Source: Sedimenticola hydrogenitrophicus (GTDB lineage Bacteria; Pseudomonadota; Gammaproteobacteria; Chromatiales; Chromatiaceae). Taken from it: a DNA stretch of 38,041 nucleotides. Each line of letters opens with the position of its first letter. The first letter of the stretch is position 1. The translations under genes and the position numbers were made by a program. The stretch is taken from NCBI RefSeq assembly GCF_029017505.1, contig NZ_JAQGEI010000045.1, positions 1 through 38,041 on the forward strand. The letters run 5' to 3'. Of this stretch, positions 8,595 through 35,535 are shown one piece after another. The notes under the pieces are model-generated. The model was not told the DNA's origin, searched no databases, and saw only the letters and a list, made by a program, of their open reading frames with translations.

Positions 8595-8916
8595 CTAGTA
8601 GTCTTCCAATTTAATATTGCCGGGTGGAGTGGTACTTAATTGGGCAGTCTATTCCCGTGAAAGTAAGTGGATCGTCATTCCGGCGCAGGCCGGAATCCAG
8701 TGAAGCGACCACCATTGGTGGATATGGATCCCGGCCTGCGCCGGGATGACGGGAGTTTTAAGCTTAACTAAGTAGCATTGATTGCCGGGTGAAGTTGCAT
8801 CGGTTTCGTAGGGTGGATGCGCGGTCGCTTATGCCATCCTCCGGTCCGTAAACGGTACATCCTTGTACCACTCCTCACCCGATATAAAGTACTTCATCAA
8901 ATTGAAGTGGTACTCG
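8595..8916. mobile_element. Composite element: family A module carrying an insertion
   Basis: The left end CTAGTAGTCTTCCAATTTAAT and the right-end stretch with ATCAAATTGAAG match, in inverse orientation, the two ends of the element at 16334-16522. The family A core lies at 8803-8879. Removing 8627-8780 plus one copy of its direct repeat restores close alignment to the 16-kb copy. The gap between hemD and hemX is thus one old repeat broken by a newer one, and I see no gene in it. Confidence 0.6.
8627..8780. mobile_element. MITE with 11-bp target duplication (copy 1, divergent)
   Basis: A 154-bp non-coding element flanked by an exact 11-bp direct repeat, ATTGCCGGGTG, at 8616-8626 and 8781-8791. 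Ends are imperfect inverted repeats (GAGTGGTACTTA and, reversed, CAATGCTACTTA) related to the GAATGGCACTTA ends at 11.5 and 22.0 kb. Inside are CGTCATTCCGGCGCAGG arms. The part from TACTTAATT through GTAAGTGGATCGTCAT matches the left part of the 22-kb copy, and a stretch around ACCATTGGTGGATATGG is present there in inverted orientation. Confidence 0.7.
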
Positions 8917-22934: not shown

Positions 22935-23098
22935 GTAGGGTGGGTTAGCGGCGCATGGGTACGATACTTCCAGACTGCACCAACTCCCGGGCGCCGCGTA
23001 ACCCACCGATTTCCAGCCTCCAGATGGTGGGTTACGGCGCGCGCGTGGTGCAATGTAAACGGCCATCTCCAGCGCAAGGCGCACCTAACCCACCCTAC
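22935..23098. repeat. Repeat family B (GTAGGGTGGGTTAGC)
   Basis: The ends GTAGGGTGGGTTAGC and CCTAACCCACCCTAC are inverted, with GCGTAACCCACCG and GGTGGGTTACGGCGC making a second inner hairpin. The second copy is at 33158-33322. The design is common in gammaproteobacterial intergenic regions. I see no gene between 22851 and 23207. Confidence 0.75.
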
Positions 23099-23207
23099 AG
23101 ATCTCCGAAACTTGAGTTAACTTGAGTTGGTAAATGGAGATGACCTTCCATCCGCCTCCGCTGGTTCCGCGGTCGAGCCGTTTCCCGAGGTCGGCCACCG
23201 GACGGAT

Positions 23208-29751: not shown

Positions 29752-32700
29752 TCAGGGGGCGGTATCGGCCGCCAGCAGGGCGCTGATGGTGGCGGCGTCC
29801 AGGAGTAACTCGTCTCCCGCTTTCTCTTTTCCATAGACCCGGTTGGCCAACTGCTGTTTCTTCGCCTGCAGGGCCAGGATCTTCTCCTCGACGGTGCCCT
29901 CGGTGATCAGCTTGTAGACGAACACCGGCTTCTCCTGGCCGATGCGGTGGGCGCGATCGGTGGCCTGCATTTCCACGGCCGGGTTCCACCAGGGATCATA
30001 GTGGATCACGGTGTCGGCCTCGGTGAGGTTGAGCCCGACGCCACCGGTCTTGAGGCTGATGAGAAACAGGTCCACCTCGCCGTGGCGGAAGCTGTCGATC
30101 ACCTGGTCGCGTTTGCGGGTCTGCCCGGTCAGCTTGCAGTAGCGGATCCCCGCCCCCTGCAGCGCCTGCTCAATCAGGCTCAGCATGGAGGTGAACTGGG
30201 AGAACAGCAGGATGCGGCGCCCCTCTTCGAGCAGCTCCGGCAGCAGCTCCATCAGCATCTCCAGTTTCGCTGAACGGGCGTCCCGGCCGCCCCCGGTCCC
30301 CACCGGCAGCAGGCGCGGGTCGCAGCAGACCTGGCGCAACTTGAGCAGGGCGTCGAGTATGGTGATGTGGCTGCGCGCCAGGCCCTTTTTGGCGATGGCG
30401 TCGCGCACCTTTTTCTCCATCGTCAGGCGGATGCTCTCGTAGAGGGCGGCCTGCCTGCCCGCGATGGGCACGGTGCGCAGCAGTTCGCTCTTCGGCGGCA
30501 GCTCGCCGGCGACGACATCCTTGGTACGGCGCAGCATGAAGGGGGCGGTGCGTTGCGCGAGGCGTTGCAGCCGCGCCTGGTCGCCCTGTTTTTCGATCGG
30601 GGTGCGATAGCGGCGGGTGAACTGCTCGTGGCTGCCCAGGAAACCCGGCAGCAGGAAGTCGAACTGGGCCCACAGTTCGCCCAGGTGGTTCTCCATCGGC
30701 GTACCGGTGAGACAGAGGCGATGGTTGGCCTTGATCGCCCGCACCAGTTGCGCCGCCTGGGCGCGGGGGTTCTTGATCTGCTGCGCCTCGTCGAGGATCA
30801 GGTAGTGGCAGGGTTGGGCGAGCAGTACCTCCCGGTCACGCGGCAGCAGCGGATAGGTGGTGAGGATGAGGTCGTACGCGTCCAGGGTGTGGAAATGCTC
30901 GTTCCGTCCGGGGCCGTGCAGCACCAGCACCTTGAGCCGCGGAGTAAAGCGCGTCGCCTCGCGCCGCCAGTTGCCCATCAGGCTGGTGGGGGCGATGATC
31001 AGGCTGGGGTGCTGCATCCGCCCGGCACGCTTTTCCACCGCCAGGTGGGCCAGGGTCTGCACCGTCTTGCCCAACCCCATGTCGTCGGCGAGAATGCCGG
31101 CCAGCTCATACTCGCGCAGGAACTGCAGCCAGTTCAGCCCCTGCTGCTGGTAACCGCGCAGTTCGCCCTTGAAGGTGCTGGGCGGCTTGACATGTTTGAT
31201 CCCGGTAAAGCCGCGCAGTTTTTTTGCCAGGCGTTGCAGGGAGCGCGCGCCACGGATCTCGATATCGCCCAGCTCCAGCAGGCGCGGCGCATCGAGGCGT
31301 GACAGGCGCAGTTCACTGCCGCCCCCCAGGCTGTCGAAGAGCTCGATGATGTTCTGCAGGATCGGCTCGATCTGCTCCCGCGCCACCTCGACATAGTGAC
31401 CCGCTGCATAGGGAAGATAGAGGGTCGGTGGCAGGGTGCCGGGGCGATAGTCGTCGATCAGCCCGCTGATCAGCGGCAGCAAGGGATACTTCCGGTCGCC
31501 GATCTGGATATCGAAGCGCAGGCCGAACCAGTCGCTGTCCGACTCCTCCACCTCGGCGCTGATGTCGGTGGCGCGGCTGAGGCTGAGGGTCGACTCCGCT
31601 GCCTGTTCCACCTGCCAGCCCTCGGCCTGCAGGCGCGGCACCACCTCGCCGAGGAAGCGGAACCAGGCGCCCAGGGCGGCCTGGCGCGCGCCCGCGATGG
31701 GTAGTGGCGTGAAGCGACCCGGCCGGGCCGCATCGCGCTGCAGGCCCTCGGCCATCAGCCGTTCGCCGGCCGCGCTCTCGGCGGTTGGGTCACGGTGGAT
31801 GCGCAGCAGCCTGCCGTCCTCCCCCCGGGTGATCGTCGCCGCGCCGGGGGCGGGATCGATCAGCAGCTCGCCCCTCTCGCCCTTTCCACCATAGCGGAAT
31901 TGCAGCGCCAGCATGGAGTTGAGCGGCTCGCTGCCGTCGAGATGCAGGGTGAGCCGCGGCACCGGCGGTACCGCGCCGAGATCGGTGATCTCGACCGGCT
32001 CGGGGGTGGGCAGTTGCGGGTGGTGTAGCGCCAGCAGGCGGCTGATCCGTCCGGCCTCGCCGCGCGGGACCGGCGGGGCCGAGGCGATAGCATGCAGGTG
32101 ATCGGCATCGATCCCGTCTGGCAGCACCACTGCCCCGGCCTCGTGGCGCGCCGGGTCGATATACAAGGGCGGGGTGACGGGCACCATCAGCGCCGCATCC
32201 GCCAGGCCGAGCACCAGGCGCAGCATGCGGCCTTCGTTTTCCCATTTCAACACGGCGTCGCGGACCGCGCCGCGCCGTAGCGGCCGCTCACGCTGCTCCC
32301 CCCAGAAGGCGCGTCCGCTGTCGAGCATCATGCCCAGCGCGGGGTTGCCGGCGGCTCCGCGCAACAGCGTGCCGCCCCACTGATAGGTGTTGCAGGCATT
32401 CAGCAGGGCGATGATCTCCGCGTCGATCGGCTGCAGGTAGCGCGGTGTCTGGTAGTGATTGCCGAGGGTCGCCAGGGTGACCCGGCGCCCCTTGCCGAAG
32501 CGGCCGTCACGCTTGCGCCGGGCAACGGTGAAGTTGACCTCGATGGCGCCCTTACTGCCCGGCTCGAGGGCATAGAGGAGCTGATCGACCGCGGCTCCAC
32601 CGGTCCGCGCCAGGGGCTGTTCCGGCGACTGAAACCGTTCGAGCCAGTCGGCAAAGGCCGAGGCGTCGCCGGACTGGATCCGGCCGGCTCCCTCGCGTTG

Positions 32701-32967
32701 CCGGCAGGCCAGGCAGGCGGCAACCACATGCTTGCAGTTATACCCCACCGGGCAGTCGCAGAAGCCCTCGATCTCGATGCCCTCGGGCGAGCGGTAGAGT
32801 CCAATATCCTGGTCGTAGAGCCGCTGGCCGCTGCCCCGGGTGGTGGTCAGCAGGCGGATGCCGGCGTCGTCCGAGCGGATCACCTCGATGATCTCGACCC
32901 GCCCCTGGTGAAAATAACTGTTACCGCGCTCGTAGGCGCCGGGGCCGCACTCCCTGCGCAGCAGCAT
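29752..32967 (-). CDS. SWIM zinc finger SNF2-family helicase/translocase
   Basis: A 1071-residue DNA-stimulated ATPase. A SWIM zinc finger (C70, C72, C78, H80 in CDCPVGYNCKH) is followed by a long variable region and a C-terminal SNF2 core: DDMGLGKTVQTL, ILDEAQQIKNP, LTGTPMENHLGELW, LFSQFTSM, LKTGGVGLNL and ATDRAHRIGQ. The family resembles RapA/HepA-like remodelers of bacterial nucleoprotein or RNA polymerase. The frame continues to 33108, but AGGAG lies 9 bases before ATG 32967 and the extension crosses non-coding DNA. It is next to a RecQ helicase and a DNA ligase; joint repair function is inference. Confidence 0.92.
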   Translation of the reverse strand: MLLRRECGPGAYERGNSYFHQGRVEIIEVIRSDDAGIRLLTTTRGSGQRLYDQDIGLYRSPEGIEIEGFCDCPVGYNCKHVVAACLACRQREGAGRIQSGDASAFADWLERFQSPEQPLARTGGAAVDQLLYALEPGSKGAIEVNFTVARRKRDGRFGKGRRVTLATLGNHYQTPRYLQPIDAEIIALLNACNTYQWGGTLLRGAAGNPALGMMLDSGRAFWGEQRERPLRRGAVRDAVLKWENEGRMLRLVLGLADAALMVPVTPPLYIDPARHEAGAVVLPDGIDADHLHAIASAPPVPRGEAGRISRLLALHHPQLPTPEPVEITDLGAVPPVPRLTLHLDGSEPLNSMLALQFRYGGKGERGELLIDPAPGAATITRGEDGRLLRIHRDPTAESAAGERLMAEGLQRDAARPGRFTPLPIAGARQAALGAWFRFLGEVVPRLQAEGWQVEQAAESTLSLSRATDISAEVEESDSDWFGLRFDIQIGDRKYPLLPLISGLIDDYRPGTLPPTLYLPYAAGHYVEVAREQIEPILQNIIELFDSLGGGSELRLSRLDAPRLLELGDIEIRGARSLQRLAKKLRGFTGIKHVKPPSTFKGELRGYQQQGLNWLQFLREYELAGILADDMGLGKTVQTLAHLAVEKRAGRMQHPSLIIAPTSLMGNWRREATRFTPRLKVLVLHGPGRNEHFHTLDAYDLILTTYPLLPRDREVLLAQPCHYLILDEAQQIKNPRAQAAQLVRAIKANHRLCLTGTPMENHLGELWAQFDFLLPGFLGSHEQFTRRYRTPIEKQGDQARLQRLAQRTAPFMLRRTKDVVAGELPPKSELLRTVPIAGRQAALYESIRLTMEKKVRDAIAKKGLARSHITILDALLKLRQVCCDPRLLPVGTGGGRDARSAKLEMLMELLPELLEEGRRILLFSQFTSMLSLIEQALQGAGIRYCKLTGQTRKRDQVIDSFRHGEVDLFLISLKTGGVGLNLTEADTVIHYDPWWNPAVEMQATDRAHRIGQEKPVFVYKLITEGTVEEKILALQAKKQQLANRVYGKEKAGDELLLDAATISALLAADTAP

Positions 32968-33157
32968 GGCGGTTATCTCCTGGATCTCGATGTTCAATGG
33001 CGTGCTCGTTGCGGGTTTGTCATCAGTGGGCTTAGGCAAAGTCGGCCATGTTACTCCAGGGCGACGGCAGCGAGAACACCCTCCATTGATCCAGGGCGCC
33101 CCGAACATACATCCATGGCCCGGACTGGTAACTCGTGTATCGGAGCTCGCAGTACTT

Positions 33158-33322
33158 GTAGGGTGGGTTAGGCGCGCCCTGCGCCGGGGTTGGTCGTTTG
33201 CATTGCATCGTGCGCGCGCCGTAACCCACCGTTTGGCGGTTGAGAAATCGGTGGGTTACGCGGCGCCCGGGTGTGGTAGTGGCCGGGAAGCGTGGTGCCT
33301 GTGCGCCGCTAACCCACCCTAC
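33158..33322. repeat. Repeat family B, second copy
   Basis: GTAGGGTGGGTTAGGCGC and GCTAACCCACCCTAC form the ends, with an inner GTAACCCACCG/CGGTGGGTTAC hairpin. Its right end and the bases just outside (CTACGAATT) became the target duplication of the adjacent 210-bp element, which therefore inserted later. Confidence 0.75.
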
Positions 33323-33327
33323 GAATT

Positions 33328-33537
33328 GGGTGCAATCGAAAGTGTTGGTCAGCTTATTTGGCAACCGAAAAAACGGTTATTTACGGATTCAGCCCGTAGG
33401 GTGGATAAGCCGGTAGGCGCATCCACCATTGCTACGGTGAGGAGTGGTACATGGATGTACCGTTTACGGACCTGAGGATGGCATGCGCAAGCTTATCCAC
33501 CCTACAGTACTACTGACCAACACTTTCGATTGCACCC
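33328..33537. mobile_element. 210-bp MITE with 25-bp ends and 9-bp target duplication
   Basis: Perfect 25-bp terminal inverted repeats (33328-33352 and 33513-33537, starting GGGTGCAATCGAAAGTG). An exact 9-bp direct repeat CTACGAATT flanks it at 33319-33327 and 33538-33546. Most of the interior is a complete family A repeat (33396-33505), preceded by a small AACCG/CGGTT hairpin. No reading frame of substance is present. The perfect ends mean it moved recently. The transposase family is not identified. Confidence 0.88.
33396..33505. repeat. Repeat family A, complete copy
   Basis: Ends GTAGGGTGGATAAGC and GCTTATCCACCCTAC are a perfect 15-bp inverted pair. The interior has GGTACATGGATGTACC (a hairpin with 7-bp arms), GTTTACGGACCTGAGG and ATGGCATGCGC. 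Other copies: 36-70, 8803-8879, 16366-16477, 21155-21235, 28712-28817 and 37725-37799. Here it is the cargo of the 210-bp element. Confidence 0.8.
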
Positions 33538-33612
33538 CTACGAATTCAGGGCCATGCATCGCGGCAGCCATGCTGTTAGGATATAGGTTCAGCCACAACA
33601 CGGAGCATTACC

Positions 33613-35535
<1,923 letters not shown>

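Follow-up and report, generated by a model that had tools for sequence, protein, structure and literature searches.

A 210-bp element between two genes of Sedimenticola hydrogenitrophicus was found to stack two unrelated transposition systems, with a DDE-type MITE on the outside and a REPIN on the inside. The element is located in the window, which is the whole stretch of 38,041 nucleotides that was analysed, between the divergent genes of a Snf2-like helicase (29752-33108, minus strand) and a recQ-family protein (33613-35535, plus strand). A scan for promoters and terminators in 33080-33640 found none. The parts of the element and its surroundings are as follows.

33130-33148, plus strand: left arm of an inverted-repeat shell (S3) that adjoins family B; its right arm was not found at this locus
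33158-33322: REPIN-like doublet of family B, 165 bp; the element was inserted at its CTAC end
33319-33327: target duplication, left copy, 9 bp, CTACGAATT
33328-33352, plus strand: left terminal inverted repeat, 25 bp; like ends occur at five further places in the genome
33353-33395, plus strand: left linker, 43 bp, with a small hairpin (AACCG, A6, CGGTT)
33396-33505: family A REPIN, 110 bp, two inverted GTAG-tagged REPs with exact GTAG...CTAC ends
33506-33512, plus strand: right linker AGTACTA, 7 bp
33513-33537, minus strand: right terminal inverted repeat, 25 bp
33538-33546: target duplication, right copy, 9 bp, CTACGAATT

The perfect 25-bp ends, the exact 9-bp duplication and the size of 210 bp given in the preliminary description were all confirmed, the element occupying 33328-33537 without the duplications and 33319-33546 with them. 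The 25-nt ends are 100% complementary, and by hand arithmetic, not a program result, about 1e-8 such pairs per window would be expected by chance (38,041 starts x ~225 spacings x 4^-25, the exact 9-mer not being counted). The family A doublet within the element (GTAGGGTGGATAAGC...GCTTATCCACCCTAC) is complete at 110 bp, as had been proposed. As a single strand with its duplications (228 nt) the element folds into nested hairpins, with a z of -9.8 against 200 shuffles. The duplicated 9-mer begins with the CTAC terminus of family B, and the element thus landed at the family B end, in agreement with the preliminary description.

The corresponding locus of a congener (G001) was found to be without the element; it carries family B and a single CTACGAAT, and its matched flanks are 95-96% identical to those of the window, with some 14 bases immediately to the right of the site being different. 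The congener locus indicates that the element in the window is an insertion. Recent movement, claimed earlier from the intact ends and duplication, fits the window copy.

A scan of the genome with up to 3 mismatches allowed over 23 bp gave six end pairs. No ORF of at least 100 aa spanned any of the six copies, whose sizes are 165-303 bp, and with several dispersed, intergenic, non-autonomous copies at six loci the element is classed as a MITE. The 9-bp duplications were present in 6/6 copies, exact in C45, C19 and C28 and with one mismatch in C24, C41 and C9. Family A lies at the identical two junctions in five of the six; the window copy has 98-99% identity to the two other long copies, and in two shorter ones, of 169 and 165 bp, the REPIN core is reduced in length. 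The left linker was confined to these five among the 40 of 248 candidates scored in the search of the own genome, and its 14-mers had no other match in an 838-kb sample. Five copies with common junctions and with duplications of their own indicate that the MITE multiplied its REPIN, and there is good support for spread of the REPIN by the MITE. It was also observed that the REPIN of one copy in C28 (L005, 1502-1666) is a near-perfect palindrome, in which the left arm matches the right arm and not the usual family A arm; this looks like hairpin-templated correction.

The sixth copy (C9:127188-127490, 303 bp) has 18 bp of its ends in common with the others and a different linker, and its interior is a family C doublet, GTAGCCTGGATGAAGC...GCTTCATCCAGGCTAC. 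The preliminary description had reasoned that family A would be an integral part and not cargo if every copy with these ends contained it; the family C copy shows that the ends are not tied to family A. Both families are also found free of the ends. In a set of 61 doublets, 12 of the 17 two-ended family A copies are without them, as had been stated for family A earlier, and family C occurs at many places in that form (25/26 two-ended copies); bare copies are at least this numerous, 40 of 248, 40 of 71 and 40 of 376 candidates (G000) having been scored in the DNA searches of the own genome. The family C element (L081) lies 2 kb apart from a bare family C doublet at C9:125051 (L082), and the two have paralogous upstream tracts, with homology that is regained within the MITE before the REPIN is reached. 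The two doublets are 93% alike and L082 is the best-scoring bare match to that of L081; another doublet (L083) is 94% alike, which makes the pair less striking than it appears. A 9-bp duplication (8/9) surrounds the family C element as a whole, which indicates that it arrived as a unit.

The bare family A copies have exact GTAG and CTAC termini and mostly different flanks. A gene for a REP-associated tyrosine transposase (RAYT) in C41 (L074, 1381-2069) matched NF047646 at 204 bits, with a cut-off of 80, and is bordered on each side by family A REPs in the manner of a REPtron. Family A is therefore considered a REPIN with a matching RAYT.

With respect to the outer layer, the paired ends of this MITE kind read GGGTGCAATCGAAAGTGT, and a scan of a genome collection for the exact 18-bp end gave 20 stretches, which include the following groups.

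With an IS or pieces of an IS: L054, L057, L058, L063, L065, L067, L068, L072
Giving end pairs: L055, L059, L060, L061, L062, L070
With a single good end, left out of the pairs: L056, L064, L069, L071

L053, where the match lies inside an open frame, and L066, where no partner end or transposase was seen, were set aside as chance matches of the 18-bp end. In another proteobacterium (L057) a 1489-bp IS was found with both ends, GGGTGCAATCGAAAGTGTTGGA and GGGTGCAAACGAAAGTGTTGGA, near-identical to those of the element over about 20 bp. Its longest frame, of 353 residues, aligned with the ISKra4 model NF033572 over model positions 72-422 (E 1e-50, 173 bits, below the cut-off of 205). The 9-mer AAAGACATA stands directly after the right end of this IS in L057; in L054, a different contig of the same bin, it stands before the left end of the IS. 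Its presence at both ends suggests a 9-bp duplication by that IS. ISKra4 belongs to the prokaryotic Mutator-like group p-MULT 4, for which ends of 18-39 bp and duplications of 8 or 9 bp are reported (PMC3942029). The element agrees with this group in its perfect 25-bp ends, which are like those of an ISKra4 IS, and in its 9-bp duplications (9/9 in three copies and 8/9 in three), and we infer that an ISKra4-type transposase moved the window element.

The proposed search for an IS with the same ends yielded one with near-identical ends in another proteobacterium. The own genome gave no match to the ISKra4 transposase (NF033572, E 0.001), and a candidate for the mobilising enzyme is therefore not in evidence there. 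Plasmids gave no DNA match to the element, and the transposase relatives on them were all below 60% identity. The exact 18-bp end was absent from viral contigs; a sister end, GGGTGCGTTTGAAAGTGT, was found in 3 viral contigs, among which the pair scan gave no end pair. The proposed search for the ends with and without family A yielded five pairs with A and one with C in the own genome, and it gave no empty shell with these ends, either in 210 genomes of the family (up to 3 mismatches; the order-level search covered the identical 210 genomes) or in the 20 exact-match stretches.

Like ends were also found in other species. The pair scan gave 17 pairs, of which one (L051, 1501-1882) was dropped as two different end kinds joined, leaving 16 distinct end pairs in six genomes around five enclosed repeat families, two of which are families A and C of the own genome; the pairs include the sister end or decayed forms at L052, L127, L128 and L133. 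At least 7 of the 9 duplication letters were alike in 13/16 pairs, the exceptions being L051 (3/9), L127 (6/9) and L128 (1/9 at that offset). A 272-bp element in Sulfuricella (L070, 2084-2355) encloses a GTAG REPIN, GTAGGGCGG, with a duplication of 9/9. We also observed three levels of nesting there, the loop of the REPIN inside the MITE itself containing a CTCTCCC hairpin, whereas at least 4 other doublets of that genome have loops of only some 10-26 bp. A TTCGACA repeat is enclosed in three genomes, the best copies having duplications of 8/9, 7/9 and 8/9. Both this repeat and the Sulfuricella REPIN are also present without such ends (e.g., L149, L152, L157, L159, L162, L164, L165, L168 and L173).

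In a betaproteobacterium (L060) a GTAGGAGC repeat is enclosed with a duplication of 9/9. When L124-L134 were inspected by eye, out of 15 further matches, this repeat was found to keep the MITE ends or the linker in most cases: at least one sister end was present at L124, L125, L127, L128 (the same place as L132), L129, L131 and L133, a decayed sister end at L126, and the linker only at L130 and L134. The repeat therefore looks integral to the MITE in that genome. Two neighbours in L060 (3865-4010 and 4119-4251) were observed to have a common interior and linker and different ends (CAATC vs CGTTT), and L060, with the same interior and linker as L124, looks like a case of exchanged ends.

Other inverted-repeat shells surround some of the doublets in the own genome. 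S3 (arms AACTCAAGTTTCGGAGTTC) encloses family A at three loci, and is found with another palindrome at C3:147483. At C18:14041, C2:9620 and C3:143744 it lacks doublets of families A, B and C, although C3:143744 looks like a deletion remnant of family A. A single S3 arm was also seen beside two family B doublets of the window (22935-23118 and 33130-33322). A further shell of the window is the following.

1916-2171: S6 shell, arms GAACCACGGAT...ATCCGTGGTTC, around a roughly central family C doublet (1964-2122)

S6 is a bare 80-bp hairpin at C4:90169-90248 and has other interiors at C4:100839 and C4:112695. Further single shells were found at L083 and L093. As a separate observation, S2 arms in the window (8595-8916) surround two repeats, a degenerate one of family A and a second inverted repeat (CGGCGCAGGCCGG...).

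The general idea that REPINs are preferentially located within inverted-repeat shells was not upheld. In the 838-kb sample 3/21 doublets had strong inverted flanks, against 5/210 mispaired and 4/210 random places (p 0.018), with 2 of the 3 positives coming from the window, which the sample includes, and with controls not matched for intergenic position. Outside the window the count was 1/15 (p 0.29), and 2/15 adjoin a known arm. In the set of 61 doublets 12/61 scored at least 12, against about 2.3% of 488 in the mispaired control, a figure that is inflated because the elements themselves had served as queries in retrieving the loci. When the six MITE copies were left out it became 6/55 (p 0.007 vs 4/210 random); three of these six positives belong to the single shell S3, and one is in the window.

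Taken as the whole explanation, a composite of two mobile systems in which a REPIN entered the loop of a MITE appears fairly probable. The outer layer would be a MITE with ISKra4-like (p-MULT 4) ends, whose transposition, catalysed in trans by a DDE transposase, generates 9-bp duplications, and the inner layer would be a complete REPIN of the kind mobilised by REP-associated tyrosine transposases. The REPIN may have entered the loop region of the palindromic MITE, which would then have copied its passenger, with one entry giving rise to the five family A copies and a separate entry to the family C copy. Against this explanation stand the own genome without an ISKra4 match, the missing empty shell, a loop entry without statistical support and the betaproteobacterial repeat that looks integral to its MITE. 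The main rival concerns the way in which the REPIN was acquired: Mutator-like ends may have formed or closed around a resident REPIN, for which template switching, gap repair and replacement of the interior of an IS are candidate mechanisms. Such capture is possible, if the less probable of the two, and it would account for the lack of an empty shell in the places searched, for the five repeat families enclosed by such ends, for the homology that resumes ahead of the REPIN in the L081/L082 tracts, and for the one genome in which the same interior and linker have two end kinds (L060 vs L124). However, the linker was not seen flanking bare family A (40 of 248 candidates scored, and the 838-kb sample), the family C element came as a unit, and L083 rivals L082 as the relative of L081, weakening that pair. 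As the entry route of the REPIN we lean slightly towards insertion over capture, since shells exist both with and without a REPIN, families A and B lie beside the same S3 sequence, and REP dimers in palindromes have been published. The earlier proposal of capture and spread by MITEs consequently held in its second part, family A having been carried to five places; that family A was picked up did not hold to the same degree, as a mobile RAYT-type family A could have entered an older MITE.

Two further readings were weighed. If the REP-like hairpin were the body of the MITE, the bare copies would be truncated MITEs, as proposed for QMITE2; all five copies with this linker do contain family A, and in the betaproteobacterial genome most inspected copies keep the MITE ends or linker. 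This reading is nevertheless improbable for family A, whose bare copies end exactly at GTAG/CTAC within mostly different flanks and outnumber the enclosed ones by 12 to 5, and whose REPs flank a RAYT gene; moreover, like MITE ends also enclose family C (5/6 copies hold A and one holds C). It is hardly credible that two solo IS ends were inserted independently, one on each side of the REPIN: a congener locus (L043) does have the right end only, beside a family C doublet, but duplications enclose the whole element in 6/6 own copies, and both junctions are common to five.

Among known systems, the window element resembles the ISKra4/p-MULT 4 IS in its 25-bp ends and 9-bp duplications, which fall within the ranges reported for that group (PMC3942029), and differs from an ISKra4 IS in being 210 bp long, in having no transposase gene and in its REPIN interior. 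A MITE with an internal GTAG REP is already a known kind, QMITE2 being the nearest case in print. QMITE2 of Coxiella burnetii is described, in the portion of the report at hand, as a 150-190-bp MITE with inverted ends, 7-11-nt direct repeats and a GTAG REP inside, and its smaller copies are REP elements that were read as truncated MITEs (PMC5896051). The likeness lies in the inverted ends, the direct repeats and the internal GTAG REP; that portion deals with one REP family and mentions no parent IS, whereas several REPINs and ISKra4-like ends are found here. Many GTAG-15 dimers of A. variabilis and all CGTC-1 dimers of H. neapolitanus lie inside longer palindromes; they are described as inserted within these, and transposon ends, target duplication and a parent IS are not named in the accessible part of that work (Di Nocera 2013, PMC3733652). 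The present element offers a testable explanation for such published dimers. In the open-access literature, searched by titles and the starts of abstracts, we found no recognisable description of REPINs inside ISKra4-type MITEs, nor of one kind of IS end around several REPIN families and tied to ISKra4-type transposons.

REPINs are described as being spread by their own RAYT enzymes, and a DDE-type MITE with a REPIN at five places would represent a second route of REPIN dispersal. The like ends around different repeats in six genomes provide a system for testing how MITEs gain their interiors. In plants, Pack-MULEs take up host sequence, which is enclosed by Mutator-type ends and 9-bp duplications, and their cargo consists of gene fragments. 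Unlike in these eukaryotic elements, the cargo here consists of mobile palindromic repeats of varied families, and capture is a candidate route. The view that a bacterial counterpart of Pack-MULEs exists, in which ends of Mutator-superfamily IS repeatedly acquire and spread palindromic repeats of different families, is tentative and rather doubtful at present; if it is true, DDE and HUH/RAYT systems would both amplify one composite, with interiors and ends being interchangeable.
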